The notes under the pieces were generated by a model. The model did no database searches and had not been told where the DNA came from. It saw nothing but the letters and a program-made list of their open reading frames with translations. DNA of 64,000 nt from Silvibacterium bohemicum (GTDB taxonomy: Bacteria; Acidobacteriota; Terriglobia; Terriglobales; Acidobacteriaceae). The position numbers and the translations under genes are program-made. This document shows positions 26,268 through 49,543 of this stretch, one piece after another. The stretch's first letter is position 1. Every line of letters starts with the position of its first letter. The stretch is taken from contig NZ_LBHJ01000003.1 of the NCBI RefSeq assembly GCF_001006305.1, forward strand, positions 795,709-859,708. The letters run 5' to 3'.

Positions 26268-26472
26268 GATCCAGTACCTCAAAGAAGAAATTTTCTTTAA
26301 TCAGAATATCGTTTCAACTGTGTGCAAATAATTACGGGATCGCAGATGAGATTTCTGCGATTCGATTCGACTCGAGCTTCCGTTGTTGACAAATCGCCAA
26401 TGCCCTGAGCATGGCGGAATACTTCGGCCATGCCGACTTCACGGTACCGATGTCACGCGAGATACTGTAATC

Positions 26473-27498
26473 GTGACAATTCCTCCTGAAACCGCCTTTG
26501 ATCGCTATCTTCGCTCGCAAAATGAGAAGGACCGTAAGAAATACCCAGGAAAACATGATCTAGACCTACTTGACTCCGGTTCTCTGAAAGAACTCTTGCT
26601 GGGACTTCAGGTTGTATTAAACCTCTCTCTAGCAAGTGAACAGCCGGTACCAGAGCATCGTGACCACCCGCCCTTTCATGTCGATTACATCAAGTCCACG
26701 GAAGCGAACGCCATAGCGTTTCGGCACGATGGCTATTCTTTTATCGGCATAACAATTCCTCTAATTGAAGTGGCCGGGCAGCTTTGCGCTCGTCTGTGCA
26801 ACTCCCTCGACTTGCTACACGCTTTAGGGCTCGAACCAACGCAAGAAGTTTCCGAAGCGCTTGGATCCGTGATGCTGGAGATATTGCTCTTCTTCGTTGT
26901 GTCCCACGAATACACACATATCGTTCACGGCCATCCTCTTTCCGAGGTCACGGAGTCGGGGCTTATTCATGAATTTTCGCTAGGCGGTCGAACTGGAAAT
27001 TTCGACGATCAGATTCTGGAAGCCGATGCAGACTCGTATGCTATCTATCACGTAATGCAAAACTGGATCAGGGGATCGAAGAGACCTTCAAGCATCGCTC
27101 TTCTTCATATGGACTCCGCTTCACTCGATGATCAGGACGGATTGCTATTTGCTTGCATCGTCGCAGCGATTGGCTCATATTTTATTTTGCATCCGGTACC
27201 TCGGCTTAATGCCGAGAGTGTCTACAGGCTCAGACATCCACCACATCCGGTTAGGCTCAATTTCTTGATGGAGACGGCGATCGCATGGTGCAGACAGAAC
27301 CGTGCTCATCTTGAAGATCGGATGAAGCCTGAGCAGTTTGACTCCCTGTTGTCGCTAGTTGCTGGTTTAGTTTGGGACAACGACGAGTTGAGGGCACAAA
27401 ACTGGAAAACACAGGTCGCCTTCCTCAAAACCCCAGAAGGCGCTTCATACGTCGCGGAACTAAGAAGACGTAAGGATGAATACCGAGCCTCGCTCTAA
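26473..27498 (+). CDS. HExxH metalloprotein of unknown family
   Basis: I chose GTG 26473 (341 residues); TTG codons upstream are in frame but weak. The centre carries a zinc-peptidase-like motif HEYTHIVHGH at 145-154 in a hydrophobic helix (LLFFVVSHEYTH). About 35 residues later comes an EADADSYAI segment whose Glu and Asp fit the third metal ligand of HExxH...ExxxD proteins. An N-terminal half with many acidic and charged segments precedes it. No signal peptide is seen, so it is intracellular. It precedes the HTH-tailed protein and the ABC-3C genes by 2-3 kb, which fits a defence role but does not show one. Confidence 0.65.
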   Translation: MTIPPETAFDRYLRSQNEKDRKKYPGKHDLDLLDSGSLKELLLGLQVVLNLSLASEQPVPEHRDHPPFHVDYIKSTEANAIAFRHDGYSFIGITIPLIEVAGQLCARLCNSLDLLHALGLEPTQEVSEALGSVMLEILLFFVVSHEYTHIVHGHPLSEVTESGLIHEFSLGGRTGNFDDQILEADADSYAIYHVMQNWIRGSKRPSSIALLHMDSASLDDQDGLLFACIVAAIGSYFILHPVPRLNAESVYRLRHPPHPVRLNFLMETAIAWCRQNRAHLEDRMKPEQFDSLLSLVAGLVWDNDELRAQNWKTQVAFLKTPEGASYVAELRRRKDEYRASL

Positions 27499-27680: not shown

Positions 27681-28886
27681 TTGGAACAGTTTGATGAGCA
27701 GGAATTCATCCAATCCCACTTAGCGACCGGCGAGGAGCTGGCGCCTGAACGTTTTCCCCAACTATCGACCTTGTCGTCTGCATTCTTCTACGACTTCGTC
27801 CCTGTGGCGAAGGAGCCCGAGCTGCCAGAAATCGTCTTTGTCCCGACATCTGAGAGCACACGTCTCGAAACCATCGGAACCATGGCAAGCTGGAATTTCC
27901 TGTGGGAGGCCGCGCAGTACCGCAAGGAAGCTTTCGAGAACGCCCGCCGAGCCGATGAAACTCCAGAACTGGCTCGTTGGATCAACGCGCTGCCGAATAC
28001 CAACGCGTATCTCATCCCAGAAACTCCAAGCAAGTATGACGCCTACGCCCCACTCTTTCACTTGTTGCCCAAAAAGGTGGTGGACCGGTTCGGGCTGCCA
28101 TCCGTCAAGCGACCACTCTGGCCTGGTCATGCGGCCTGGTGGAATGAGAAGTTGATGCCTTCCGACTTCGAGCATCGCTTGAGCGAGGCGTTCGCAGCGC
28201 ACATCTGGAGTCACGTCGACTCAGGCTCCAGCCTGCAAGCCTTCAGCGCTACCGAACCCTTGAAATTGCTCTCTCACAGTTTGGATTTCTGGCTCCCCTA
28301 CGTGCTGATGGTCCTAGAAGATCTCATGCGGGACTTCGAGCGGTGTGAGCCGGACAACGCCCGCCAAAAGATGCTCCTCGCAAAGGCTCGGAAGGAAGAC
28401 TTTGGGGAAGTGGCCATCGACCGTCCCCGAAGGGGCGGAACATTATGGATTGGCGAAGAGGAAGCTGGCGATGTCACGGACCTCGTGGTGGAGGCGGCAG
28501 ACCGTCAAGGCCAATTGCGGCAGTTGATTGATGCTGTGCGATCGAACAGGGTAGCAGACGACTTCTCGCCCATCTGGTCCTACGCCCGTGAGGACTTTGA
28601 GCGGAAGCTTTATTCCAAGCGGTCGAAGGTCAGAGTGTCCTTTGTCGAATTGACGGACACGCTGCCGGTGCACAGCGCCCGAAGCGAGTACACGGATGGC
28701 CTTCTGTGGCAGGACTTCACCTCCTTGCTCGACGCGAAAGAACGTCACATCGTGGTGGCACTTCGGAGCGGAACAACCAAGCTGGCAGACATCGCCGCCA
28801 CGCTTGGGTACGCCAACCACAGCCCGGTCTCGAAAGCACTCGACCGAATCCGCAGAAAGGCATCTGCCTTCCTCAGCCTGAACTGA
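27681..28886 (+). CDS. uncharacterised protein with C-terminal sigma-like HTH
   Basis: I do not recognise the first 330 residues of this 401-residue protein. They are rich in aromatic residues and read as a globular helical domain (MASWNFLWEAAQYRKEAFEN; WPGHAAWWNEKL). The last 65 residues look like sigma-70 region 4 or a LuxR-like HTH: LLDAKERHIVVALRSGTTKL, then ADIAATLGYANHSPVSKALD and a basic helix. The start is TTG 27681 behind AGAGGG; there is no ATG nearby. It lies in the island before the ABC-3C system, but 351 bases separate them, so it may be a separate regulator. Confidence 0.55.
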   Translation: MEQFDEQEFIQSHLATGEELAPERFPQLSTLSSAFFYDFVPVAKEPELPEIVFVPTSESTRLETIGTMASWNFLWEAAQYRKEAFENARRADETPELARWINALPNTNAYLIPETPSKYDAYAPLFHLLPKKVVDRFGLPSVKRPLWPGHAAWWNEKLMPSDFEHRLSEAFAAHIWSHVDSGSSLQAFSATEPLKLLSHSLDFWLPYVLMVLEDLMRDFERCEPDNARQKMLLAKARKEDFGEVAIDRPRRGGTLWIGEEEAGDVTDLVVEAADRQGQLRQLIDAVRSNRVADDFSPIWSYAREDFERKLYSKRSKVRVSFVELTDTLPVHSARSEYTDGLLWQDFTSLLDAKERHIVVALRSGTTKLADIAATLGYANHSPVSKALDRIRRKASAFLSLN

Positions 28887-29237: not shown

Positions 29238-30335
29238 ATGGCAGGCCCACCGTCGACTGCGCCCATCACCGCTCACCCGGCCCTGGGCAAGCTAGATCCT
29301 CATGTTGTCGCGAGCGGGCCCGCAATCCCGCCGATCGAGAGGGTCGCACTCTTCTCGGAGGAGCAGTGGGAACACTTTACGGACGAGTGGGCTGCGAGCC
29401 TGACAGACTATGCGAAGGTAGAACGGGCGAGTGGAGCGGGCGACAAGGGGTGTGACATCGTCGCTTTCCCCGTTGAAGGAGGAGCCGTTTGGGACAACTA
29501 CCAGTGCAAGCATTACGACAAACCGCTCACTCCCACAGACATCTGGCTGGAGTTGGGAAAGATTTGCCACTACAGCTTCATCGGCGAGTACACCGTTCCG
29601 CGCAAGTATAGGTTTGTCGCCCCCAGAAACGTCGGAACCAAGCTCGCCTCATATTTCCGGAGACCGGCGACGCTGAAGGCCGAGTTATTGAAGATTTGGG
29701 ATGATAAGTGCAAGGACGATATCAAGAGTGTCCCAGTACCGCTCACTGCAGAGCTACGAGAGCACATCGAGAAGATCGATTTCGGCATCTTCGGTTACCT
29801 TCCGGTACTCGACCTGATCGACCAGCATAAGAAGACGCCGCACTTCGTTGCTCGCTTCGGTCTGGGGCTTCCAGCGCGATCTCCGGTTGATCCACCTCCA
29901 GGGATTCCAACGGCCGATGAGACCCGCTATGTTCAGCAGCTTTTCGAAGCGTACAGCGACAACAAGGGCAGGCAAATCACTATTAGCCAAGATCTTCCGG
30001 TCTCGCTGCAGAAACACTTCAACCGGTCTCGAGAATCGTTTTACTCTGCCGAGGCGCTGCGCAACTTCTCTCGCGACAACCTGCCCAGTGGAGAATTCGA
30101 GAATCTTCAAGAACAGATATACACGGGCGTCGCGGATACCTGTGAGGGTGTACACGCCTGTGGTTTGACTCGCCTGATCGCCACCACCAATCGCGCTGCT
30201 GATCTCTCAATCACGAGTTCACCCCTCATGGGAAAAACGGAGATTACAGATTTGCACGGAATCTGCCATCAGCTAGCTAACGTTGATCGGCTGACCTGGG
30301 TAGTGGAGAAAGATGGGGAAGATGTCGACAGCTAG
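29238..30335 (+). CDS. ABC-3C system effector: PD-(D/E)xK nuclease plus C-terminal module
   Basis: The 365-residue protein has a restriction-endonuclease-like N-terminal domain: Glu45 in EEQWEHF, then GDKGCDIVAF with Asp73, then NYQCKHY with Gln89-x-Lys91. This is the Mrr-like (E)...D...QxK active site expected to cut DNA. From about residue 225 a second helical domain follows, matching the C-terminal modules that couple effectors to ABC-3C systems. Its stop is overlapped by the MC2-like gene and then the ATPase gene, which fixes the system assignment. It is probably activated by the ATPase sensor on sensing phage or plasmid DNA. Identification rests on motif order and context. Confidence 0.7.
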   Translation: MAGPPSTAPITAHPALGKLDPHVVASGPAIPPIERVALFSEEQWEHFTDEWAASLTDYAKVERASGAGDKGCDIVAFPVEGGAVWDNYQCKHYDKPLTPTDIWLELGKICHYSFIGEYTVPRKYRFVAPRNVGTKLASYFRRPATLKAELLKIWDDKCKDDIKSVPVPLTAELREHIEKIDFGIFGYLPVLDLIDQHKKTPHFVARFGLGLPARSPVDPPPGIPTADETRYVQQLFEAYSDNKGRQITISQDLPVSLQKHFNRSRESFYSAEALRNFSRDNLPSGEFENLQEQIYTGVADTCEGVHACGLTRLIATTNRAADLSITSSPLMGKTEITDLHGICHQLANVDRLTWVVEKDGEDVDS

Positions 30336-30804
30336 CCCCTTCAACAGCGCATTGGAGTGTGGCTTGCGAGCACTGGCGATTCTCGCTTCTGGCTATCCGG
30401 CGTCGGCTGACTTGCAGCGCCTCGTAGCCTACGACTACCTTCTCGTCCATTCTGCCGATGCGGATGGCCCTTCGAGCCTGCACCCGAGCACGCCACATCG
30501 AAATGGAGAGCTTCTTGTTCGCCACACACTAATAGAGAGTGGCCTTTTTCTTCTCTTGAGCCGAAACTTGATAGAACGCTTTGCCACCAGTAAGGGAATC
30601 GAATATCGGGCCATGGACGCGGCCCAAGCTTTTCTGGACGGATTGTCTTCGGACTACATGCGGGCTTTGCGCGACCGTGCCGATTGGTTATCGCTCACCT
30701 TCACTACGATGAGTGAAGGTGAGTTGAAGGATTTCGTAAACGCGCATTTTGATCAGTGGACAACTGAGTTCCAATCGCTAGAAGCGGTCGGGGAAGTACT
30801 ATGA
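30313..30804 (+). CDS. ABC-3C middle component, MC2-like
   Basis: The 163-residue helical protein has the features of the ABC-3C middle component 2 family: FNSALECGLRALAIL at the N-terminus, DLQRLVAYDYLLVHSADADG, LHPSTPHRNGELLVR with the conserved PHR/GE, and a C-terminal W...E-rich end. This component bridges ATPase and effector in the predicted complex. ATG 30313 has GGAG 4 bases before; the gene overlaps the effector by 23 bases and the ATPase by 4 (ATGA at 30801). This gives tight translational coupling across all three. Confidence 0.75.
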   Translation: MGKMSTASPFNSALECGLRALAILASGYPASADLQRLVAYDYLLVHSADADGPSSLHPSTPHRNGELLVRHTLIESGLFLLLSRNLIERFATSKGIEYRAMDAAQAFLDGLSSDYMRALRDRADWLSLTFTTMSEGELKDFVNAHFDQWTTEFQSLEAVGEVL

Positions 30805-32693
30805 CCGGGTTCCAAATACGCGCTCTCCAAATGACCGGACCTTCGATGCCGGTTGCCCGAATCACGTTCGGCCCGGGACTCAACGTCATATCAGGGGCAT
30901 CCAATTCGGGCAAATCTTTCCTCTTCCACGCGATCGACTTCATGTTTGGCGCTGCTAGCCTAGACATGATTCCAGAGGCTCGGCCTTATACCTTGGCGGA
31001 GTTGGAACTCGAAGGAGCCGACGGTAGGTTTATGATCCGCAGGGCTCTGCAAGGTGGGTCGTTCGAGCTGTACAACCTTGATGACCCTAGCTCAGACGTA
31101 ACGATTCTCGGCGAACGTCTCAACCGGAACGATCCGAACAACATCAGCACTTTTCTCCTGCGCCTAGCGGGTCTCGACGGTAAGCGAGTTCGCAAAAACG
31201 CGGATAACGCACTCCAAGACCTCAGCTTCCGGAATCTAGCAAGACTCATCATGGTCGATGAGCAAGACATCATCAAAGTCACGTCTCCCATTCATGGCGG
31301 GGAGGCTACGCAACTGACCGCAGAAACCAACACGTTCAAGCTGGTGCTTACCGGTCAGGACGATTCTGCGCTTGTGGAGCAGAAGAAGAAGGCTGTAGCG
31401 AAGGCTGAATTGGAAGGTCAACTCGAACTGCTGGACAAGTTGTCGAAAGCGTACAACGAGGAACTTGGTGACAAACCGGCTTCCCCAGCCGATCTCAACG
31501 ACCAGCTCGAACGACTGACGCAGACGTTGGTTTCTACCGAGGCGAGTTTGCGGGAGCAGAGGCAAGCCTTGCAAGTACAGGTTGACGCAAGGCGCACCCT
31601 CATCATCGAGCACAATTCGGCGCGGGCAAGACTCGACGAAGTTGCCGCTCTCGTCGCAAGGTTTCGCCTGTTGGACAGTCATTATCAGTCAGACATCTCC
31701 CGCCTCGATGCACTATGGGAAGCTGGAACGCTTTTTCCTGCCTTGAGCAGCGAAATCTGTCCGCTTTGCGGGGCGCCTCAAATCACGCACTCTCACGAGA
31801 ACGAGCAAACGCTGAGCGTCGATGTTTTGAAAGTCCGCGACTCCTGTTCAGCCGAGAAGAACAAAATAGAGCTGCTCCGGAAGGAGCTGTTCACAACGAT
31901 CGATAGCCTCTCCGCTGAGGCGGCGGAACTTAGAGCCGTCATAAGCGACAGACGCACACGAGTCTCTGGGCTTACCGAGGAGATCGACCAAGTCACGCAA
32001 GTCGCACTGAAAGCTTCCGAAAGAGATTACGAGGCCTACGCCGATCTTCGCTTCGAAGTGCGGCAGAAACTTTCGACATATTCCCGGATAAATGACCTGA
32101 CCGCTCGATATGACACGATACAAAGCGCCTTGAGTTCAATCGGCGCGGCGCGGAGGGTTCCGACTGACCTTCCGTTCGCAAGTCTGGTGGGCTTTACTTC
32201 TGAGTTTGAAGCTCTGTTGAAAGCCTGGAAGTACCCGTACGAAGGTGCCATTACGTTCGATACGAAGTCAGAAGACTTCACCCTTGGTACCCGCCGCCGG
32301 CGAGAACAGGGCAAGGGCTCGCGAGCATTAACACATGCAGCGTTCACTATCTCCCTCATGAGATATTGCGCCGCAAACAATCTTCCGCACCCTGGCTTGG
32401 TTGTGCTCGATTCCCCGCTGGTCACGTTCCGCGATAAAGATGCCGGCACGTCGGGTATCGACGCGTTGTCAGGTGAGGCGCAGTTGCAGGTAAAGGACGA
32501 ATTCTATCGAGATCTTGCAAGCCGCGTGGCTGAACAACAACTCATCATCTTCGAAAACGAGGAACCAGAGGTCAGCATCCAGAAAGACATCGTCTTCCAC
32601 CATTTCACCGGCGATGCCACTCTGCCGCGATGTGGCTTCTTTCCCGTCCCTTCAACTTCCGAAGAATCGCTTGATGCAAAGGCGAATTCCTGA
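30801..32693 (+). CDS. ABC-3C SMC-like ABC ATPase (DUF3732-like)
   Basis: The 630-residue protein has a Walker A motif GASNSGKS at 32-39 and a central coiled coil broken by a zinc-hook-like CPLCG at 320-324, followed by a second helical arm. A C-terminal ABC half carries LVVLDSPL with Asp537 as Walker B, where many ABC ATPases have DE; the DSP variant is typical of DUF3732-like sensors. SMC/Rad50-like hooks bind DNA or dimerise. It is the ATP-driven sensor of the three-gene ABC-3C unit; its ATGA overlap with the MC2 gene indicates co-translation. A long hairpin ends the transcript. Confidence 0.8.
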   Translation: MTGFQIRALQMTGPSMPVARITFGPGLNVISGASNSGKSFLFHAIDFMFGAASLDMIPEARPYTLAELELEGADGRFMIRRALQGGSFELYNLDDPSSDVTILGERLNRNDPNNISTFLLRLAGLDGKRVRKNADNALQDLSFRNLARLIMVDEQDIIKVTSPIHGGEATQLTAETNTFKLVLTGQDDSALVEQKKKAVAKAELEGQLELLDKLSKAYNEELGDKPASPADLNDQLERLTQTLVSTEASLREQRQALQVQVDARRTLIIEHNSARARLDEVAALVARFRLLDSHYQSDISRLDALWEAGTLFPALSSEICPLCGAPQITHSHENEQTLSVDVLKVRDSCSAEKNKIELLRKELFTTIDSLSAEAAELRAVISDRRTRVSGLTEEIDQVTQVALKASERDYEAYADLRFEVRQKLSTYSRINDLTARYDTIQSALSSIGAARRVPTDLPFASLVGFTSEFEALLKAWKYPYEGAITFDTKSEDFTLGTRRRREQGKGSRALTHAAFTISLMRYCAANNLPHPGLVVLDSPLVTFRDKDAGTSGIDALSGEAQLQVKDEFYRDLASRVAEQQLIIFENEEPEVSIQKDIVFHHFTGDATLPRCGFFPVPSTSEESLDAKANS

Positions 32694-37797: not shown

Positions 37798-39024
37798 ATG
37801 TTAGGGGACTTCAAGAACTTATCGAGTTTCGGCTGGACGTTCATGTCCAGGGATGCGATCGGCCGCGCTGAGGCGCAACTCGATGGGCACTCCGAAGGTG
37901 TTCGGGACGAGATCGGCTTTCTACTCATCCATCAGCGCTATGCAGACCGCTTCTTCCCAGGAACCTCAGTGCTGCATACTCGCCTGCGCTACGTGCTCTT
38001 CGTTCCATGGATGTACGAGGCACTGCAGAGAGAGACAAAAGTCAGGTCAGTACAGCGTTCAGTTGAACGCGCTGAGGTGCGGCTCGCAGGCCGGCTACTG
38101 GACGCTGGAGAGGATGGCGTTATAGGAGCACGTCGTTTTCCTGAGAAGAGCAATCAGCCACCATCACTGATCTACTGGACCGCTCTCGGAGCGTGGGGAC
38201 TGCTGGGCCCGACGCGGGACGGCGAGCATCTGCCCACGAGATCGCGTATTCACGCCACCCTCAGCTCAGCGACCCGGACAACATTGGATGACGATGGTGT
38301 GCCGCTCAACCCCAGCTATCTCCCGTTCGACAAACTAATGCCTGACGCCCCGGATGACTTTGTAGGAGATGGCGAACTCACCTTTGTCCTTTTATTGGAC
38401 GAGAAAAAGTATCTCCGCAAGAGGCTCAGCGATGTCAGGTCTGTACACCACCCAGGCGAGCCCTCGCTGTTGGCAAAGCTCGCGCTCTTGAATGCCGTTC
38501 CCGACGTTGAGCACTGTTGGGACAGTGAGATCTTGAAATATGCCGGGAGGGATAGGGATGCCCTTTTGCGCGCAGGCCAAGCCGCAGCACTCGCAGTGAT
38601 CGGCCGCGGAGTCTATGCGGCGTTGGTCGAAGAGATCCGGGAGTGCAACGACAGTATCCAGACTTCACGCCTCCATCGGGATAAGCTCCCATTGATATTG
38701 GCGGAACATGCAGAGGAAGCTTCTAAGCTCAACCTGTTGGGGCTCCAAATGGATGGGATCGATCTGTCGGAGCCGTTCTCTGCAGTTCTCACAGAAACCC
38801 AGGACTGGATTCACAGGAAAAACGGACCAGTTAGGGACCTTCTCGATTGTTATCGAAGGGCCGAATGCCGTCGCAAGGGCCAACGAGCGCGCCTGTCTCA
38901 AAGTCTGAAAGGCAGGGAACTGCGGCGTGTCTGGGAGAATGAGAAGCATCCTGGGGCGAAACCCCTGCACTATCGATGGCACAATGTGCATCGCCTGCTT
39001 AACGACCTAAATGGGGCCGAATGA
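37798..39024 (+). CDS. DUF6361 family protein
   Basis: The 408-residue protein fits DUF6361, whose members start with a GWxxxS segment and contain DEIGxxxIHxRYADRFFPGTS, then LHTRLRYVLFVPWMYEAL. Here these read GWTFMSRDAI, DEIGFLLIHQRYADRFFPGT and the same LHTRLRY..PWMY. A DGVIGARRFPE segment and PPSLIYWTALGAWGL follow. The function is unknown. GAGGACG lies before the ATG. Its stop overlaps the phospholipase-D-like gene by ATGA, and the helicase gene follows 22 bases further on. This is a compact three-gene unit of the kind found in defence islands. It may be the sensor. Confidence 0.75.
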   Translation: MLGDFKNLSSFGWTFMSRDAIGRAEAQLDGHSEGVRDEIGFLLIHQRYADRFFPGTSVLHTRLRYVLFVPWMYEALQRETKVRSVQRSVERAEVRLAGRLLDAGEDGVIGARRFPEKSNQPPSLIYWTALGAWGLLGPTRDGEHLPTRSRIHATLSSATRTTLDDDGVPLNPSYLPFDKLMPDAPDDFVGDGELTFVLLLDEKKYLRKRLSDVRSVHHPGEPSLLAKLALLNAVPDVEHCWDSEILKYAGRDRDALLRAGQAAALAVIGRGVYAALVEEIRECNDSIQTSRLHRDKLPLILAEHAEEASKLNLLGLQMDGIDLSEPFSAVLTETQDWIHRKNGPVRDLLDCYRRAECRRKGQRARLSQSLKGRELRRVWENEKHPGAKPLHYRWHNVHRLLNDLNGAE

Positions 39025-40838
39025 AAACTGGAAAGGAGTGGTCGCCACAGTCGTACCTCGAAGGACTCAGGCCCGATCCCGGTTGGATCGTCGAAACCGC
39101 ACTTCTCGCCACCTACTCTGCGGATGTAACGTCGATCGCTGCCGCTCTGCTATCGATGGCCGAACGGGACGACGATCGAGGCTCAGGAAGCCAGGCTGAT
39201 CTCGCCGAGGCAGTCACGGACCTTCGAGGGAAGGTGCGGATTGTCCTGCAGCAGGGAAGGCTCAGTAGCGCGAATAAGCGATCAGACGTGACGGCGATCT
39301 TCGATCAGTTCCTGATCGAGGTTCCATTCGACCAAAATACCCATAGCTGGCATCCAAAGATGGCGTTCGTCCGCTTTTCCAATCAGCAAGGAGAAGTGCG
39401 CTGGCGCTTATGGCTCGGTAGCCGAAATCTGACTGTTGCCGCGAATCGAGACCTGGGGCTGCTGCTCACTGGTGGCGTGGCGATTCAAGGAGGAGTTCGG
39501 ATCGACGGTCTGGTCGATGTTTTTGACAAGCTTGCAAGTTCGGCACAACTGGCTGAATCAGATCGAATCAGGCTGGTACGCGAACTGAAAGACGTGACCT
39601 GGAACGTTCCAGCAGGGCTCAAAATCAAGAGGATTCGTCTTACCGGTGGCCAGGGGAACGATCCACTTCCAGTCGCCCCAGAAGGTGTAACTGAAGTTGC
39701 CATTGTCAGTCCATTTCTGCACGGCGTCTTCCTGAAGACAATTGGAACGTGGGGCGGTGGTCAGACACCGCGAACTCTCTTCTCAACTCAGACAGAGCTT
39801 CTCAGGCTTGCGGCCCAACCGGGAAAACCGTTGGAGGCCTTCGCCAGTAATCTTCTCTCTTTTCAGAAGCCGATGAACGACTGGACCGAGGAGGATGAGG
39901 ACGAGACTGGTGACGAGGTGGAGATCGGAGCGGAGGAGGCTCCGATACTCGGGCTTCACGCGAAGATCCTTGCCGCTCGGACTGCCAGGAAGGTGTTTCT
40001 GTGGATCGGCAGCCCCAACGCAACGACCAGGGCTTGGGAAGGTCGAAACGTAGAAATTATCGCGGAAATAGAGGCCGACTTAGGATACTGGGAAGGCCTA
40101 AAGGATCTGCTGGGCCGTGGCCTCCCGTGTCCGCTGGAGCAGTTGGTAAAGGAAGGCTTTATTGAAGATCAGGTCCGGAAACGTCTGGAAGAGGCCCGTA
40201 ACTCAGTGGCATGGTCCTGCCGGACTGCTACGCTGCTGCGCGACGGGGATACTTTTAGGCTCGAAGTAGATCACGCTCCCCATCCGTTAGATCATGAGAT
40301 CGCACTGCACGTCGGCATGGCCACAGGATCGCTTGTCCCCTGGATGCAGGCATCGACGATGCTCGAACTCGGGACATTTCCGCTGGCGTTACAGACAGAA
40401 TTGGTCCAGTTGCGGTTGTCGCTCGAAGGCAGCGAGTGTTGCTGGATGCAACGGTTCCCGGTGACGCCACCCCTGGATGCAAATCGTGACCGGGCGGCTC
40501 TAGCGCGGTACCTGGGACCAAAGGCATTTCTTGCGTGGTGGCGTTCGCTGATCGACGGTGGCTCCGTTGAGGGCGAGGCGCCAGCGTGGGATGCCCCGGT
40601 CAACTCTCAGCAGGCCACAGGCTCCCTGAACAAAGACCTCGACTCGCTGACAATCGAAAGTATGCTTGCCTGCTGGGCACGGGATCCTGCCGCGTTCGAG
40701 CGCGCAAACATGCGTGTCCAGGATTATCTCGATCTGATTCTGGATGGATCGTATACGGAACAGCAGCACGAGATGGAGCGCCTTCAGGAACTCAGGTCTA
40801 TCTGGAACACACTGACAACGGAGCTTCTGGAGAAGTGA
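39021..40838 (+). CDS. phospholipase-D-superfamily nuclease
   Basis: The 605-residue protein carries two PLD half-sites. The first is HPK at 111-113, with GSRN at 133-136. The second is HAK at 313-315, followed by IGSPNATTRAW, about 200 residues later. Two HxK...GSxN motifs in one chain form one composite active site, as in DNA-cutting PLD enzymes such as those of DISARM. An acidic insert (EEDEDETGDEVEIGAEE) lies just before the second. The C-terminal third is unassigned. There is no signal peptide. It overlaps the DUF6361 gene by 4 bases, so it is presumably the nuclease of this operon. Confidence 0.75.
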   Translation: MKTGKEWSPQSYLEGLRPDPGWIVETALLATYSADVTSIAAALLSMAERDDDRGSGSQADLAEAVTDLRGKVRIVLQQGRLSSANKRSDVTAIFDQFLIEVPFDQNTHSWHPKMAFVRFSNQQGEVRWRLWLGSRNLTVAANRDLGLLLTGGVAIQGGVRIDGLVDVFDKLASSAQLAESDRIRLVRELKDVTWNVPAGLKIKRIRLTGGQGNDPLPVAPEGVTEVAIVSPFLHGVFLKTIGTWGGGQTPRTLFSTQTELLRLAAQPGKPLEAFASNLLSFQKPMNDWTEEDEDETGDEVEIGAEEAPILGLHAKILAARTARKVFLWIGSPNATTRAWEGRNVEIIAEIEADLGYWEGLKDLLGRGLPCPLEQLVKEGFIEDQVRKRLEEARNSVAWSCRTATLLRDGDTFRLEVDHAPHPLDHEIALHVGMATGSLVPWMQASTMLELGTFPLALQTELVQLRLSLEGSECCWMQRFPVTPPLDANRDRAALARYLGPKAFLAWWRSLIDGGSVEGEAPAWDAPVNSQQATGSLNKDLDSLTIESMLACWARDPAAFERANMRVQDYLDLILDGSYTEQQHEMERLQELRSIWNTLTTELLEK

Positions 40839-40860
40839 CGAGCGCCATGGTGAAACCCGC

Positions 40861-43800
40861 ATGAGCGCAAGCCTGAAGCGCTTTCAACAAGCAACGGTCG
40901 AAGTCGCTTGCCGGACCCTGGAGGACGTTGCTGGGCCGCGCCGCTTCCTGGTTGCCGACGAGGTTGGCTTGGGCAAAACGGTTGTTGCACGCGACATCGT
41001 AGCGCGTCTTTGCAAACGCCAGAGCCGGCCTCTGCTTGTTTATTACGTGACCAATGGCCAGCGTGTTGGTAACCAGAATCGCGGCAGGCTTGTTGATTTC
41101 CTCCCCAGGGAGGAGCGGAAGAATGCGCTTTCGAATATCGATCGCCTCGGCCTGATTCCCTTCGAAACAGCTCGCCCGAAGGCCAAGGTCAGACTCTATG
41201 CGCTCACGCCGGCCACCTCCTTCCCCGGTGATCAAGCCCGGCTGCACGGCGGGCGAAAGGAGGAGCGAGCATTCCTTCGGGCGCTCCTGGGATGGACTTA
41301 CCCGCAACTGATACGGAGTTTGCCGGAGGATCTGCTTCGGGGCACAGCAAGGAAGAACTGGGAACAACTTGTGGAGGCCTACCGGCACGCGAGATATAAG
41401 CCTGAAGAGCGATTCCTTCGCGCCTTCCGATCGGCGGTCAGCCAGGAATTCAAGGGTGATCCATACGCGAAAATCGTTGAAGCTGCGAAGACCGAGACGA
41501 AGGGCAGGATCATCGGACGCTTGCGCCGTGCTCTCGCGCACGCGCAGTTGATATTCAGCCCGCCGGATCTCGTGATCTTCGATGAGTTCCAGAGGTATCG
41601 AGAGCTTCTCACTCCCAATGGACTGCAGGATAAGCTCATGTCGCAACTGCTCTGCGGAGCCAATCCGCCTGCAGTGCTGCTTCTCTCCGCGACGCCCTAC
41701 AAACTGTACGCGGGGCGGTGGGAACAAGCTGCCGGCGCAGATCACCACAGGGAACTCTTTGAGCTCATCGAGTTTCTTGGCGGAGATCATGGCAAGGTGA
41801 TTCGTCAACGCGCGATGAGCGCCTTCTCGGATTTCGGTGACAGCATTCGCGCCATGGCGAGGATCCCAAGCGAGTCCTCAGAGTTCGACGCACACAGAGT
41901 CTCTGCGTCGGCTCAGCGCACAACCCTGCAAGGCCTGCTTGGTCCGCTGATGTCCAGGACGGAACGTGAGGGCAGAGATGTGTCTGACGGCAGCCATACT
42001 GTGCCGCTTGCTTGCGAGTTGTCTGCGGAGGATGTTCGTGTCTACCGTCATCTGGTGAACTCGTTCAAGAAGCAGCATAGAAGCGAGGCACTTCCTTACT
42101 GGCTCTCGGTGCCATTGCCGATGCAGGCGCTTGGAAAGCGCTACCAGGCCTGGAAACAACGGATATCACTCAACGACAGCAAGCTGACGAAGCTGACATT
42201 GGAAGACCGTAAGAAGCTGAAACCGGCGGCGCATTGGCCACACCCAAAGCTCCGCGCGCTGCAAAGAGTCCTAAAGTCCGACAGCCTGGCTCTTCCTTGG
42301 ACGGCACCTTCTCTGCCATGGTGGTCGCTCTCGGGAGATTGGGCCGGAGAGACGCCAGAAAAGCTGTTGCTTTTTAGTCGCTTCAAGGCAACGCCTCAGA
42401 GTATCGCCGCGTTGCTGAGCCTGGAGGTCGAAGCCTCCTACTTGCCGAAGAAAAGGGGCTACGAACTCGCGTGGCGGCAACGCCGTCTGCAGGCTGGAAA
42501 GGGAAGAATGCCGATTCTTGCCCTTTTCCATCCTTCTCCGTTCCTTATCGGAGCAGTGGATCCGATGAAGGCACGAGGCGGAAACCTTCGGAGTGTCCGC
42601 GCTTCGGTCATGGCGCAACTTCTGTCAGCGCTCGATAAACTTGGCGTTCAGATTGACAAGGCAACCGCCAAGGAGCGAAAGCGGAGGCGACCAATCTGGA
42701 AGATCATCTCTGCGCTTGACCTCCGGGCGGGCTTCAGCGCGATGAGCTCTTCCGCATGGAAACAGGTTGCGGCTGATGACGTCCGGCTCCTCGGATGTGT
42801 CCAACAGTGGCACAAAGCCTCCACCGTGACCTCGATCAGCTCGAGTGAATTGCGTGATCTGGCTACTATCGCGCTGTCTTCGCCGGGGGTGGTTGCTGGA
42901 CGCGCACTTCGGCGCCACTATGCTCAGGCACTGGCTCCGGAAGGGTTCCACGACCTATTGCGGCTATGTTGGCATGGTTTGCGTACCTACCTGGACAATC
43001 CGGTCTTCTTTGCTCGTCTTAAGGGGCGAACACCGGCACTGACGTTGCAACAGGCCGCCCTGTCCGGAAATCTTGAAGCGTTGCTTGATGAGCATTTTTG
43101 GCTTGCCCGGCAGAGCGGATCAGAGGATGGAGCAGAACTTGCGGAAGACTTGTGTTCAATACTCGGGGTTACCACCGGTTCGTTCTCATTCCATCCGATT
43201 GGTAGCAAATCCGAGCAGCGCATACGAGTCCGCTGTCACGCCGCGGTGCCTTTCGGTGGAACCGACCATGAACTCGATTCGAAGGCGGGTACAGGTGTGA
43301 CCCGTCCCGTTCGCTCCGACGAACTCCGTAAGGCTTTCAATACTCCATTCTGGCCGCATGTGTTGGCAACGACCTCCGTTGGACAGGAAGGCCTGGATTT
43401 TCACGTATGGTGCGGGCGTGTCGCTCACTGGGATCTTTGTTCAAGCCCTCTTGATCTCGAACAACGGGAGGGACGCATCCAGCGATACGGTGGCCAGCTC
43501 ATTCGGCGCAGCCTTGCGAAGTCTCTGGGGACGGAACTACTCAAGAAAGACCTGCACGGAGGTTCTGTCTGGCCGGAGATTGAGAGGGCCGGGAACTTAG
43601 AGAAGTCCGATCTCAGTGGCCTTAGCCCTTGGTGGGTTTTGCCGGAGACAGGCGTCACTCGCTACATATTCAGGATGCCCCACAGCCGAGATGAGGCAAG
43701 ATTCAAGGCACTGCAGGAGCAACGCCTCCTCTATCGCCTCGCCCTAGGTCAGCCCAACCAGGAAGACTTCGTCAACGTGCTAATGGCGAGCCATGCAGAC

Positions 43801-43926
43801 AAGTTTCCGATCCTCAGAGAACTCGCGCTCGATCTGTCAGCGTTTGGCCGCGAGAAGACTCAGAGCGGTGAAGAAAGAATAATGACTCCGCTGGTTCACG
43901 AGGCAACGGTGCAGGCCCGACGCTAG
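40861..43926 (+). CDS. SF2 helicase, large
   Basis: The 1021-residue SF2 helicase has motif I ADEVGLGKTVVA at 32-43, motif II DEFQ at 241-244, motif III LLSATPYKL, motif V TTSVGQEGLDFH and motif VI QREGRIQRYGG (Gln868-Gly878). EFQ in place of EAD/EAH and SVGQEGLDFH with QREGRIQR are typical of Snf2/HepA-like helicases that translocate on double-stranded DNA. The middle 450 residues (about 300-800) are family-specific. It is the last gene of the DUF6361-PLD-helicase operon, an arrangement in which helicase and nuclease probably cooperate. Confidence 0.85.
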   Translation: MSASLKRFQQATVEVACRTLEDVAGPRRFLVADEVGLGKTVVARDIVARLCKRQSRPLLVYYVTNGQRVGNQNRGRLVDFLPREERKNALSNIDRLGLIPFETARPKAKVRLYALTPATSFPGDQARLHGGRKEERAFLRALLGWTYPQLIRSLPEDLLRGTARKNWEQLVEAYRHARYKPEERFLRAFRSAVSQEFKGDPYAKIVEAAKTETKGRIIGRLRRALAHAQLIFSPPDLVIFDEFQRYRELLTPNGLQDKLMSQLLCGANPPAVLLLSATPYKLYAGRWEQAAGADHHRELFELIEFLGGDHGKVIRQRAMSAFSDFGDSIRAMARIPSESSEFDAHRVSASAQRTTLQGLLGPLMSRTEREGRDVSDGSHTVPLACELSAEDVRVYRHLVNSFKKQHRSEALPYWLSVPLPMQALGKRYQAWKQRISLNDSKLTKLTLEDRKKLKPAAHWPHPKLRALQRVLKSDSLALPWTAPSLPWWSLSGDWAGETPEKLLLFSRFKATPQSIAALLSLEVEASYLPKKRGYELAWRQRRLQAGKGRMPILALFHPSPFLIGAVDPMKARGGNLRSVRASVMAQLLSALDKLGVQIDKATAKERKRRRPIWKIISALDLRAGFSAMSSSAWKQVAADDVRLLGCVQQWHKASTVTSISSSELRDLATIALSSPGVVAGRALRRHYAQALAPEGFHDLLRLCWHGLRTYLDNPVFFARLKGRTPALTLQQAALSGNLEALLDEHFWLARQSGSEDGAELAEDLCSILGVTTGSFSFHPIGSKSEQRIRVRCHAAVPFGGTDHELDSKAGTGVTRPVRSDELRKAFNTPFWPHVLATTSVGQEGLDFHVWCGRVAHWDLCSSPLDLEQREGRIQRYGGQLIRRSLAKSLGTELLKKDLHGGSVWPEIERAGNLEKSDLSGLSPWWVLPETGVTRYIFRMPHSRDEARFKALQEQRLLYRLALGQPNQEDFVNVLMASHADKFPILRELALDLSAFGREKTQSGEERIMTPLVHEATVQARR

Positions 43927-44548: not shown

Positions 44549-46300
44549 TCAGCTTCCTGGATACGGCACGGTCTGCGTGAGTTGTTTCAACTGGGCCGCG
44601 TCGCTCCAACTGATCGAGCCGGTCGCAGAGATCTCTCCTACGCCATTGAAGTCAGTGATCCTGCCGATGAGGTCCCCCAGCGTCGGCCGGTCAGCATCGA
44701 AACGGGATGCCCGATAGAGATTCGTAAGCCGAGCTGCCAATGGTCCAACCTCGCTCCATGTGTTGTCCGGATTGGGCCGACTCATGGCGTACGTGCCGGG
44801 TTTGGCAGCAAGCAACACCAGATTTGTTGAGTGGAGATATGGTTGCGAGTCTGCGACGTGTTCCTGTAGGTCTCCAAGACGGGAAAGGGCCGATCCGGGG
44901 TCTCCGTTGGATCCAGCAAAGAAGAAGACATTCAGGCCCTTGTCGGAGACGATTCCAAGCTCCGAACGCATCCGTTCGAACTCATCCATGCGAAGGCACC
45001 CATCAACGATGAGAGCGAAGGGGACGTGAGCCTGAGTCAGTTCTGCGTAGAGTTCGCGTAGAGGAAGAAAGCCCTGTGGGAGCGTCTCCAGATTTGCGTC
45101 CAGCGCATTCGCCAAGCGGGCGAGATCGCCGATGTTGCTCCCCACCGACCGGTCGAGCAGCTCTGGGGAGCGCGTTGATAGATTCCTAGGGATCTCCGTT
45201 GCGGAACCGAGGATGAGCGCGATATCGCCACTGGGCCATGTCATCGAATGGCCAACGTAGTAGGCGACCAGGAACTTGCTGTGGTTGGCCTGGACGGCAC
45301 TCGTTACCTGGGCGACGAAGCCTTTTACGCCCTGTTCGGTCAGCGGTTGCTGCTCCGTGCTGATGAGGTCCATCGTCGCCACCGGACCGTACTGAGAGAG
45401 CGCGCTATCGACCAACCGAGCTGAGTCCGCGTTCCAGTCCTGACGGAGTGTCACTAACTTCGGATAGTGGCCGGACGCGATGGTCACGAGTGTCCAGTTG
45501 GTTCCCGGTTTTGCCGGGGCCGGACTCGTACTGGAAACGGTTTGAGTGTGCGGCCGAATCGGTGTGAGGTTGACGTCTGTGGGCTCGACTCCCAAGTGAG
45601 TGAGGATGAAGTGCGCGCTGCTGGCCTCGAATGCGAAGATCACGGGGTCAAGCATCTCGACACGAATCTCACCCTCCTGCGTCCTGCTCGCATCGATCCG
45701 GAAGTGTTCCGAGTCTTGATTCGATTTTGGAGCTTTCTGCCAAAGAGAACCCTGGTCGCTTCCTTTGCGTTTCAGGACATAGGTGATCTTTCCAACGTAG
45801 GATCTCGTAATGACAATGGGATCCGTTCCTTTATTCGCCGCGCTTTGTGCTTCTTGAGAGGCCAGGAGCTTCTTTTTAAGGGCGGGCACGTCCATCTCGA
45901 GGATCTTGCCGTCGCTCACCTCTAATTCGAGTCCAACCTCCTGCTTGCTGGAGGCTGCTTCATTCAACCAGGGCACGCCAAGCGAGCCGAGCGCATTGCC
46001 AGCTACCTCGTCATTCGCAGTAAGTTGAAAGCTATCTCCAGTATGGAGGTCTGGGTCGTTCGCGTCCGCGGGGTTGAGGATAAAGAGTTGTTCTGTTGCG
46101 AGGATCGTACCGGGGTAACGCGATGCAGCCGGCGGAAGATTGATGAAGAAGTCCGCAGCGCGCTCCTTTGGAAGGTTGAGCGCAGAGGCGAGCCGCGTGC
46201 GGAGATCCGCGTGCCTTGTGAAGAGTCTTGGAAGGAAGAAGACGAGAGCTGCAAGTACGACCACTGCAGCGAGGGTTAGGCCGACTTGCTTGCGCGACAT
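44549..46300 (-). CDS. membrane-anchored caspase-like protein
   Basis: The 583-residue protein starts with one membrane helix (VGLTLAAVVVLAALVFFLP, residues 6-24), then a long beta-rich extracytoplasmic or cytoplasmic region to about 265. The C-terminal part resembles a peptidase C14 fold: TNWTLVTIASGHYPKL, the helix NADSARLVDSALSQYG, then KFLVAYYVGHSMTWP with His351 and FALIVDGCLRMDEF with Cys435. His-(84)-Cys with hydrophobic strands before each is the caspase dyad; the usual GHG and DSChSG are changed to GHS and DGC. It lies next to a defence-type operon and a DUF4238 gene. It could be a suicide effector or an enzyme with another role. Confidence 0.65.
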   Translation of the reverse strand: MSRKQVGLTLAAVVVLAALVFFLPRLFTRHADLRTRLASALNLPKERAADFFINLPPAASRYPGTILATEQLFILNPADANDPDLHTGDSFQLTANDEVAGNALGSLGVPWLNEAASSKQEVGLELEVSDGKILEMDVPALKKKLLASQEAQSAANKGTDPIVITRSYVGKITYVLKRKGSDQGSLWQKAPKSNQDSEHFRIDASRTQEGEIRVEMLDPVIFAFEASSAHFILTHLGVEPTDVNLTPIRPHTQTVSSTSPAPAKPGTNWTLVTIASGHYPKLVTLRQDWNADSARLVDSALSQYGPVATMDLISTEQQPLTEQGVKGFVAQVTSAVQANHSKFLVAYYVGHSMTWPSGDIALILGSATEIPRNLSTRSPELLDRSVGSNIGDLARLANALDANLETLPQGFLPLRELYAELTQAHVPFALIVDGCLRMDEFERMRSELGIVSDKGLNVFFFAGSNGDPGSALSRLGDLQEHVADSQPYLHSTNLVLLAAKPGTYAMSRPNPDNTWSEVGPLAARLTNLYRASRFDADRPTLGDLIGRITDFNGVGEISATGSISWSDAAQLKQLTQTVPYPGS

Positions 46301-46461: not shown

Positions 46462-47403
46462 ATGAGCGCGGTAGCCAAGAAGCTGCACCATTTCGTCCCA
46501 AGGTTCTATCTCGACGCATGGGCGGTGGATGATAAGGTTTGCTGCCTGCAGTCGGGCAGGGTCTTTCAGCCGAACGTCAGAAATGTAGGAGCAGAGAACC
46601 ACTTTTATCGGCTGAGAGAATTGCAACCGTCCGATGTGGCCTTCATCCACGAAACGGTTATCAACGATTCGCCTGAGCGGCTTAAGTCGATGCACTTGCA
46701 GCTGCTACAACAGTTCATGACGCCGCATGCAGCGAAGGCGCATTACCAAAAGGAGTCATCGAGCCATTCCGGAATACTGGCGGCAATCGACAAGGACATT
46801 GCCGAGGCGAACGAGAACTTTCACGCGAAGATTGAGCAGTCGTTTCAACCTTACCTTGAGAGTCTTCGCGGCGGTGATCTTCGCTTCCTTTCAAACGACA
46901 ACGATGGAGTGGCTTTCTATCGCGGTCTTGCCGTCCAATACACCCGTACCAACCATCGTCGGCGTATTGAGATGCTGATGCCCATCGAAGAGCGGTCGAG
47001 ATTTGAACGAACTGCTAATATCATCTCGCACATGCTCGCCCTGAATCTTGGTTACAGCCTTTTCAACGCTCATCCACGTATGTCGATCCTGCTGATCGAG
47101 AACGAAACAGATGTGCCGTTCCTCACAAGCGATCAACCCATGATCAACATAGCTGCGAAATTCAATGACCATGAAGCTCCCGTGGCCTTCGAAGGCTACT
47201 ATCCCGTCTCTCCCTGGAGGGCTCTGCTGATCTTAGAAGCCGGTAGCGAGTTCTATCCTCGGAATGCATCGGTGACAGCGATGGAAGCTCATCTCTGGAA
47301 CCTGAGAATTGCGAGTCGCGCGTACCGCCAGGTCTTCTCCTGCAGTCGCGAGCAGCTCGAGACCGTCAGAGCGGATCTCCCCGTCTTCGTAGACTCGCTT
47401 TAG
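46462..47403 (+). CDS. DUF4238 family protein
   Basis: The 313-residue protein begins with the DUF4238 signature KKLHHFVPRFYLDAWA and contains VPFLTSDQPMI, equivalent to the family's PFxTSDxP motif, near residue 215. These residues (HH...R; SD) are probably catalytic, as many members occur singly in variable loci, but the biochemical activity is unknown. It is divergent from the caspase-like gene across 161 bases without palindromes that I can see. The sequence before the ATG has no clear ribosome site. Confidence 0.78.
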   Translation: MSAVAKKLHHFVPRFYLDAWAVDDKVCCLQSGRVFQPNVRNVGAENHFYRLRELQPSDVAFIHETVINDSPERLKSMHLQLLQQFMTPHAAKAHYQKESSSHSGILAAIDKDIAEANENFHAKIEQSFQPYLESLRGGDLRFLSNDNDGVAFYRGLAVQYTRTNHRRRIEMLMPIEERSRFERTANIISHMLALNLGYSLFNAHPRMSILLIENETDVPFLTSDQPMINIAAKFNDHEAPVAFEGYYPVSPWRALLILEAGSEFYPRNASVTAMEAHLWNLRIASRAYRQVFSCSREQLETVRADLPVFVDSL

Positions 47404-47566: not shown

Positions 47567-49543
47567 ATGCACCGCGACCCATTCGTCTCACATCCCATCG
47601 AAGGTCATCCGAGAGCGGACATGACCATCAAGCCTGAGGCGCACAAGCAATTTATCTTAGACCGCCGCCGCTTCCTGCAAGGGATGATCGCTGCTGGTCT
47701 TGTGACTTGGAATGCAGGCTTGGCTAAGGCCGCTACCGTATTGCATCCACCAACCGAATTGAAGGGAAACCAGTTCGATCTCGTGATCGACACACTCCCG
47801 GTGAACTTCACGGGGAAAGTTCGCACGGCAGTCGCAGTGAACGGTTCAGTCCCAGGCCCTACTCTTCGCTGGAGAGAAGGCGACACGGTCACGTTGTCAG
47901 TGACGAACAGGCTCAAGACATTCACCTCCATCCACTGGCATGGAATGCGTATTCCCTCTGAGATGGATGGAGTTCCCGGCTTGAGCTTCGAGGGCATTGG
48001 ACCGGGGCAGAAGTTCACCTACGAATTCACGGTGAAGCAGAATGGTACCTACTGGTATCACAGCCATAGCGGATTTCAGGAGCAAACCGGGCTAAGCGGT
48101 GCGATCATCATTGATCCTCTGCTCTCCGAGGCGGAAGCTCCCGAACACGACTACGCGATCCTGTTGTCGGATTGGACCGATCTCGATCCAAACTCCATTC
48201 TGAGCAATCTCAAGGGAGACAGTGACTATTACAACTACCATCGTCCGAGTCTGAAACAGTTCTCCCGCGATGCGCACGCCGATGGATTCTCCAAGGCCCT
48301 GGCGCAGCACATGGTGTGGGCAAAGATGAATATGAGCCCCTCGGACATTGCCGATGTGTCCGGTAGCGCATATTCCTACTTGCTGAATGGTGCGCCTCCA
48401 TCCAGCCCTTGGTCTGCAATGTTCGCGCCGGGACAGAAAGTGAGGCTGCGCTTTATCAACGGCTCCGCGATGACGTTCTTCGATGTACGTATCCCCGGTC
48501 TGAAGATGATGGTAGTGGCAGCGGACGGCAATGCGATCGAGCCAGTCACTGTCGACGAGTTCCGCATCGGAACTGCCGAAACCTATGACGTTATCGTTGA
48601 ACCAAAGGACGAAGCGTACACAATCTTCGCCCAGGCGGAAGATCGCACCGGATTTGCTCGCGCCATCCTGACACCGAAACTTGGCTTGCTTCCTGATATC
48701 CCACCGATGGACCCGCGCCCGATGCGAACGATGTCGGACATGGGCATGAAGATGACGGGCATGAAGATGAGCGCCAACATGGACATGCCCGGCATGGATA
48801 TGACGAGTATGGAAATGCCAGCGATGGATAAGTCGAGCAGTGGCTCTATGAAAGGGAATCAGGGTTCGATGTCCAACATGAGTGTGCACTCGGATACATC
48901 GATTTCAATGGGAGTCGGAGAGGCGGCTTCGGTGTCATCCTTCGAGTCGAGCTTTCCCTTGCCACAGCCTGGTCCTGGCGTGTTGCCCATAGCCTCAGCC
49001 GAAGGCAAACAGATGATGCCTGCGGACCATCCGGCAAAAATTCTCCACGTCGGCCCTGAAGTGGCCACGGTTGCGTCCATGACCTCAAGCCGGCCTGAAG
49101 ACCCGGGCGACGGTCTTCAAAACAATGGGCGCCGCGTTCTTACCTATGCTGACCTTCGTGCTCGTTACAGCGGAGTCGATCGGCGCGCCCCTTCTCGTGA
49201 AATCGAGCTGCACTTGACCGGGAACATGGAACGCTTCATCTGGGGCTTCGATGGAAAGAAGTTCTCTGAGGCGCCTCCGATCACATTGGCCTACGGAGAA
49301 CGCGTTCGGATCATTCTCATCAATGACACCATGATGGAGCATCCGATTCACCTCCATGGACTCTGGAGCGAGCTTGAGAATGGTCATGGTGAGTTCAACC
49401 CGTACAAGCACACACTCATCGTGAAACCAGCGGAGCGGGTGAGCTATGTTGTTACTGCGGATACGCGTGGTCATTGGGCTTATCACTGCCACCTCATGTA
49501 CCACATGGAAGCCGGGATGTTTCGAACGGTGATCGTGCAATGA
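47567..49543 (+). CDS. copA: multicopper oxidase CopA
   Basis: CopA/PcoA oxidises periplasmic Cu(I). The 658-residue protein carries a twin-arginine signal (RRRFLQGMIAAG, then cleavage near AKAA) after a 25-residue N-terminus. The copper ligands follow: HWHG, HSHS, HPIHLHG and HCHLMYHMEAGM in the last domain. A long Met-rich stretch (MSDMGMKMTGMKM, then MDMPGMDMTSMEM) at about 385-420 is the typical Cu-binding insert. Start 47567 has AGGAAA upstream; ATG 47621 is also possible. The stop overlaps copB (outer membrane) by ATGA. Confidence 0.92.
   Translation: MHRDPFVSHPIEGHPRADMTIKPEAHKQFILDRRRFLQGMIAAGLVTWNAGLAKAATVLHPPTELKGNQFDLVIDTLPVNFTGKVRTAVAVNGSVPGPTLRWREGDTVTLSVTNRLKTFTSIHWHGMRIPSEMDGVPGLSFEGIGPGQKFTYEFTVKQNGTYWYHSHSGFQEQTGLSGAIIIDPLLSEAEAPEHDYAILLSDWTDLDPNSILSNLKGDSDYYNYHRPSLKQFSRDAHADGFSKALAQHMVWAKMNMSPSDIADVSGSAYSYLLNGAPPSSPWSAMFAPGQKVRLRFINGSAMTFFDVRIPGLKMMVVAADGNAIEPVTVDEFRIGTAETYDVIVEPKDEAYTIFAQAEDRTGFARAILTPKLGLLPDIPPMDPRPMRTMSDMGMKMTGMKMSANMDMPGMDMTSMEMPAMDKSSSGSMKGNQGSMSNMSVHSDTSISMGVGEAASVSSFESSFPLPQPGPGVLPIASAEGKQMMPADHPAKILHVGPEVATVASMTSSRPEDPGDGLQNNGRRVLTYADLRARYSGVDRRAPSREIELHLTGNMERFIWGFDGKKFSEAPPITLAYGERVRIILINDTMMEHPIHLHGLWSELENGHGEFNPYKHTLIVKPAERVSYVVTADTRGHWAYHCHLMYHMEAGMFRTVIVQ

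Follow-up and report, generated by a model that had tools for sequence, protein, structure and literature searches.

The element considered here is a three-gene operon of Silvibacterium bohemicum, carried by a stretch of 64,000 nucleotides of contig NZ_LBHJ01000003.1 (assembly GCF_001006305.1) that is referred to below as the window. Judged by its protein family matches, the operon is almost certainly a complete Azaca anti-phage system, ZacABC, and hence one that has already been named. Each product matches the corresponding PADLOC model over nearly its full length: ZacA at E 3.8e-82 (protein residues 9-406 of 408 against model positions 3-392 of 396), ZacB at E 1.3e-115 (residues 8-602 of 605 against 6-581 of 586), and ZacC at E 5.2e-268 (residues 1-995 of 1021 against 9-1017 of 1019). 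Neither ZacA nor ZacB matches a second PADLOC family at E 0.1, and the runner-up family of ZacC, PDC-M27C, is found at E 4.4e-19 over 62 residues only. What is observed here is the family identity, the order of the genes, the intactness of the catalytic motifs, and the co-inheritance of the trio; the explanation taken as a whole, in which a proposed mechanism is added to the Azaca identity, is considered probable.

Azaca reportedly goes back to a founding paper by Millman in 2022. Both PMC10925250 and PMC12278908 name ZacC as the helicase of Azaca, and Table 1 of PMC10952713 gives a PLD-like domain for Mokosh and Azaca, with the tested function entered as N/A. In Pfam, DUF6361 (PF19888) is recognised in ZacA at E 4.8e-14 (52.6 bits, cut-off 25) over residues 22-211 only and PLDc_2 in ZacB at E 1.8e-4, under its curated cut-off, and the matches of ZacC are weak and generic (ResIII, Helicase_C, AAA_22, and DEAD), all under cut-off. 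Because the Pfam matches are weak, the operon appeared unnamed, and an initial annotation, made from the DNA alone, had held that it corresponds to no named system. An unnamed new system would agree with Pfam matches that are only weak or of unknown function and with the occurrence of the term DUF6361 in no paper of the literature searched, but it is refuted by the nearly full-length PADLOC matches of all three proteins and retains a negligible probability. The interpretation of the initial annotation is partly supported overall: it had assigned the domain types (DUF6361, PLD, and helicase) correctly and had proposed the operon as a candidate defence system, which it probably is.

The genes are packed head to tail exactly as had been claimed. 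Both the ATGA overlap of zacA and zacB (39021-39024) and the 22-base gap between zacB and zacC (40839-40860) are read in the sequence; the three frames are all open and their motifs intact, so that a remnant or pseudogene was rejected. The three-gene arrangement is not due to chance. One ZacC was found in the host genome (6.46 Mb). Between 37440 and 44560 a promoter scan found none, against 1.8 expected from shuffles, and five terminators were found, against 6.3 expected; no clear composition step is seen at the operon.

The conservation of the trio was followed in a genome collection of 84,980 species, scanned with a six-member ZacC alignment, which yielded at least 79 loci as best matches. 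The 79 loci were chosen by two ZacC peptide patterns and best match and were not dereplicated, and the sample therefore favours intact ZacC. A locus was scorable when at least 3300 bases lay upstream of ZacC, which kept 64 of the 79 and dropped 15. In all 64 scorable loci among these best 79, ZacA and ZacB lie upstream of ZacC with order and strand preserved; ZacB is split over frames in two of them (L051 and L054), with ZacA and ZacC present, and four (L051, L072, L074, and L081) are without a full-length ZacC. Of the outcomes that the initial annotation had set against its own reading, a match to a named system was found, whereas a lack of conserved neighbours was not, both being retained in 64 of 64. 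Among the dropped loci, ZacA and ZacB are visible in three (L055, L064, and L085); ZacB only, itself cut by the contig end, in two (L042 and L076); and ZacB only in L095, no ZacA being detected in the 454 bases remaining before it. Eight of the 15 have fewer than 300 bases upstream or a ZacC that is cut. In L056, with about 1.5 kb upstream by projection, no ZacB was found and ZacC is split over two frames; this may be a degraded or decaying Azaca copy.

The taxa among the best 79 loci include Pseudomonadota, Planctomycetes, Acidobacteria, Nitrospira, and a Bacillus, with ZacC identities of 27-53%. The 4-base overlap of ZacA and ZacB recurs in 40 of 62 scored pairs, window included, a fraction that depends on estimated start codons. 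Distances between the proteins are strongly correlated across 59 loci, window included (Mantel r = 0.969 for ZacA-ZacB, 0.966 for ZacA-ZacC, and 0.983 for ZacB-ZacC), the largest shuffle value being 0.173 with shuffles that keep shared host ancestry in. Since the commonest neighbour family occurs in only 6 of 45 dereplicated loci, no fourth gene of at least 90 amino acids (aa) belongs to the unit. Because the count was taken over 45 of 50 clusters with flanks of unequal length, and over open reading frames (ORFs) no shorter than 90 aa, it could have overlooked a small fourth gene.

Approached from DUF6361, the association holds as well, so that a third outcome set against the initial reading, DUF6361 mostly without its partners, is not seen. 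Of the 299 genomes in the window's class, 10 encode the domain, in 11 gene copies: seven stand in the full trio, one is followed by ZacB until its contig ends, and the remaining three, all fragmentary, lie no more than about 800 bases from a contig end. One of the seven trios (G313:C74) has a shorter ZacB frame of 551 aa, which stops 217 bases before ZacC. One fragment (G181) has no ZacB in the following 790 bases and another (G296) is spread over two frames; both may be degraded. Among plasmids, ZacC is matched in 55 of 72,556 records, coverage reaching 80% or more in 45 of them. All five plasmid stretches inspected carry genes annotated as DUF6361, phospholipase D, and helicase, at 23-48% identity to the window across ZacA, ZacB, and ZacC; a Bradyrhizobium plasmid (L024) has a shorter DUF6361, followed by a small extra annotated ORF. 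Phage records gave two ZacC matches in 50,697, one at 26% identity covering 98% of the query and the other covering 6%, and viral contigs gave 37 pattern matches and no relatives. No relative was recovered when ZacB alone was used to scan the genome collection.

The catalytic elements of ZacC, whose intactness had been noted initially, are conserved in 68-71 of 71 proteins. What we take to be motifs I (33-40), II (241-244), III (276-279), V (838-848), and VI (868-875) are well preserved: the Walker lysine K39 is present in 70 of 71 proteins, window included, the exception (L077) being a gap where the contig starts; D241, E242, and S276-P279 (SATP) are present in 71 of 71, window included; and the motif V and VI residues passing a 93% listing are found in 68-71 of 71. 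Motifs III and V are separated by about 560 residues. The nearest solved structure by profile is RapA (E 5.4e-6, motif I region only), and the single sequence has no match in the PDB. In PMC10925250, ZacC is assigned to SF2_SNF2.

ZacB carries the two PLD half-sites that had been read at H111/K113 and H313/K315, and they are nearly invariant in its relatives. H111, K113, R135, N136, and T138 are present in 67 of 67 proteins and H313, K315, S331, and N333 in 66 of 67, the window included in both counts and the exception (L091) being an alignment gap at that place. At E 0.01, PLDc_2 is recognised in 50 of 58 members and the NgoFVII nuclease family in 5 of 58. The predicted model is of high confidence (predicted local distance difference test, pLDDT, 90.7; predicted template modelling score, pTM, 0.91) and shows a C-terminal strand-rich and helical part at residues ~404-604. 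Its best fold matches in the PDB are Tdp1 structures (Foldseek, E from 1.7e-6, probability 1.00), aligned over about 390-455 columns at ~12% identity with template modelling scores (TM-scores) by query length of 0.28-0.32. Polyphosphate kinase 1, human PLD1, and Escherichia coli phosphatidylserine synthase come after Tdp1, and the restriction enzymes SauUSI (7clg, E 1.0e-3) and NgoAVII (4rct, E 9.7e-3) are matched as well. By profile against PDB sequences, SauUSI (7clg) is found at E 2.4e-5 and the restriction endonucleases 2c1l (E 0.018) and 4rct (E 0.31) weakly.

ZacA is all-helical in its AlphaFold2 model, which is of high confidence (pLDDT 90.6, pTM 0.86). All 64 proteins compared, counting that of the window, have D37, E38, G40, P54, Y65, G110, Y126, W127, W337, E356, K360, W379, and R393, and 13 invariant residues are counted across 55 aligned members. 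By sequence, ZacA has a single, chance-level match in the PDB (E 0.28); by fold, its model has no match in the PDB at E<=0.001 and none among viral models.

The mechanism of Azaca is listed as unknown in a 2026 review (PMC12926258) and a 2023 survey (PMC10482375), and literature searches, which mostly do not cover subscription papers, found no paper on it. With moderate confidence, it is proposed that a Snf2 translocase (ZacC), a PLD nuclease (ZacB), and ZacA act together on foreign DNA. ZacC would be an Snf2-type translocase on double-stranded DNA, and ZacB a nuclease whose two HKN half-sites, both on the same chain, would combine into one composite active site. Enzymes of the PLD type cleave phosphodiesters without metal, via a covalent histidine intermediate, and ZacB would be expected to proceed likewise. 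ZacA may serve as a helical adaptor, either recognising the target or restraining the nuclease. The three proteins would thereby constitute an ATP-powered complex which, once loaded onto invading DNA, would cleave it while translocating or on stalling. Its logic would be akin to that of CglI/NgoAVII and SauUSI, restriction enzymes that pair a PLD nuclease with an ATPase, though without a dedicated methyltransferase gene. It has been reported that cleavage by the R protein of CglI and NgoAVII depends on its ATPase partner and on extensive hydrolysis of ATP (PMC4267653) and that SauUSI translocates on DNA and shreds it (PMC7913695).

Several points weigh against this explanation. The Azaca identity rests on PADLOC models, and the contacts between subunits of ZacABC are inferred. 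Given the low TM-scores, the likeness of ZacB to Tdp1 is one of overall architecture only, and comparison of the ZacA model with PDB folds reveals no recognised DNA-binding or catalytic fold. No methyltransferase recurs beside the trio in the 45 dereplicated loci, which leaves the sparing of self DNA unaccounted for.

The last point also bears on the main rival of a restriction mechanism, a genome-integrity alarm resembling Hachiman, in which, during infection, ZacC would sense DNA that is abnormal or damaged and free an indiscriminate ZacB, host DNA being destroyed too in an abortive response. The absence of a methyltransferase fits the sensing of structure rather than of sequence; moreover, in Hachiman a helicase sensor constrains a nuclease effector (PMC12278908), and the ZacC of Azaca is among the helicases compared in the same paper. 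On the other hand, ZacC is of the SNF2 type whereas HamB is of the Ski2 type (PMC10925250), ZacB is a PLD protein, and neither ZacA nor ZacB matches a Hachiman model in PADLOC. Such an alarm is possible, though rather unlikely. Within the restriction reading, a bolder version, offered as speculative and improbable, is that ZacA has a helical fold not described before, through which a two-site Tdp1-like nuclease and an Snf2 translocase tell phage DNA from self without a modification gene; Azaca would then represent a new mechanistic type of ATP-dependent restriction machine.

As Azaca has already been named, the locus adds one more host, and the remaining interest lies in the mechanism and in the unmatched fold of ZacA. 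The conserved ZacA residues, the HKN pairs of ZacB, and the ZacC motifs provide a direct list for mutagenesis, and the Tdp1-like architecture predicted for ZacB would yield a testable chemical prediction. A full Lamassu set (LmuA, LmuC, and LmuB) lies about 5.1 kb upstream, by which the locus is recognised as a small defence cluster (Table 1).

Table 1. The Azaca operon and surrounding features (window positions).
Feature	Position	Strand	Description
zacA	37798-39024	+	DUF6361 protein, 408 aa, all-helical in predicted model
zacB	39021-40838	+	PLD-superfamily protein, 605 aa, HKN half-sites H111/K113/N136 and H313/K315/N333
zacC	40861-43926	+	SF2 Snf2-type helicase/translocase, 1021 aa
Lamassu operon	29238-32693	+	PADLOC LmuA E 9.9e-114, LmuC E 5.9e-51, LmuB E 9.4e-170
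Two ORFs directly upstream of Lamassu	26383-27498, 27681-28886	+	371 and 401 aa from TTG
Right-hand neighbour of Azaca	44549-46300	-	583-aa protein, N-terminal hydrophobic stretch
DUF4238 protein	46462-47403	+	E 4.7e-24; adjoins defence cluster
Multicopper oxidase	47567-49543	+	best other matches partial: 41% in own genome, 39% in another genome of the genus

The two ORFs before Lamassu have no match in Pfam (E 0.001), PADLOC, or PHROGs (E 0.01). The right-hand neighbour has none in Pfam, NCBIfam, PADLOC, or PHROGs, nor in eight other genomes of the genus, of which only three reach 90% completeness. For the left-hand reductase, the best match (64%) is in another genome of the genus, and an insertion test in the genus defined no empty site. 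The multicopper oxidase may be acquired, since its best other matches are partial.

As regards known systems, Tdp1 bears the HKN motif as two half-sites in one chain, which ZacB shares with its best fold match; the two differ in the low identity and TM-score given above and perhaps in the C-terminal part of ZacB. The nucleases of CglI, NgoAVII, and SauUSI have one PLD site per chain. Like Azaca, these enzymes couple a PLD nuclease to a helicase-like ATPase, and ZacB matches them remotely in both sequence and fold; however, their nuclease parts are dimeric, whereas ZacB has two sites per chain, and the abstracts of their reports mention no protein equivalent to ZacA (PMC4267653, PMC7913695). 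CglI and NgoAVII also possess a methyltransferase gene, and the Azaca trio is without one.

DISARM comprises DrmA, DrmB, DrmC, DrmD, and a methylase. A stripped-down variant of DISARM or of Mokosh would account for the pairing of a PLD protein with a helicase, of the Snf2 type in DISARM, and the ZacC core indeed matches DrmD, DpdE, and one DrmA model. Nevertheless, these matches are local, the best stretches spanning 13-68 residues and lying nearly all in 803-885, and the PADLOC model PLD_Helicase covers only residues 4-47 of ZacC (E 4.9e-5). ZacA matches the ZacA model only, and ZacB at E 0.1 the ZacB model only, with no DrmC match. In 17 window proteins (7 + 10, part of the window ORFs) compared with PADLOC, DrmB and the DISARM methylase were not found, the rest of the genome not being searched, and DrmA appeared only as the local core match of ZacC itself, so that the absence of these genes noted initially holds among the proteins scanned; a PglX match on the LmuA protein is at chance level (E 0.029). 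DISARM membership was rejected on these grounds. Mokosh types I and II likewise combine a helicase with a PLD-like domain (PMC10952713 for the latter), but MkoA and MkoC are SF1 Upf1-type helicases whereas ZacC is SF2 SNF2 (PMC10925250), and none of the PADLOC families matched bears an Mko name; Mokosh membership was rejected as well, and a variant of either system is scarcely credible. With Azaca, by contrast, the operon shares three nearly full-length proteins, their order, strand, and tight packing, and intact motifs; no architectural difference is seen, the divergence being one of sequence only, and the locus is a real, intact, and conserved copy of a known system.

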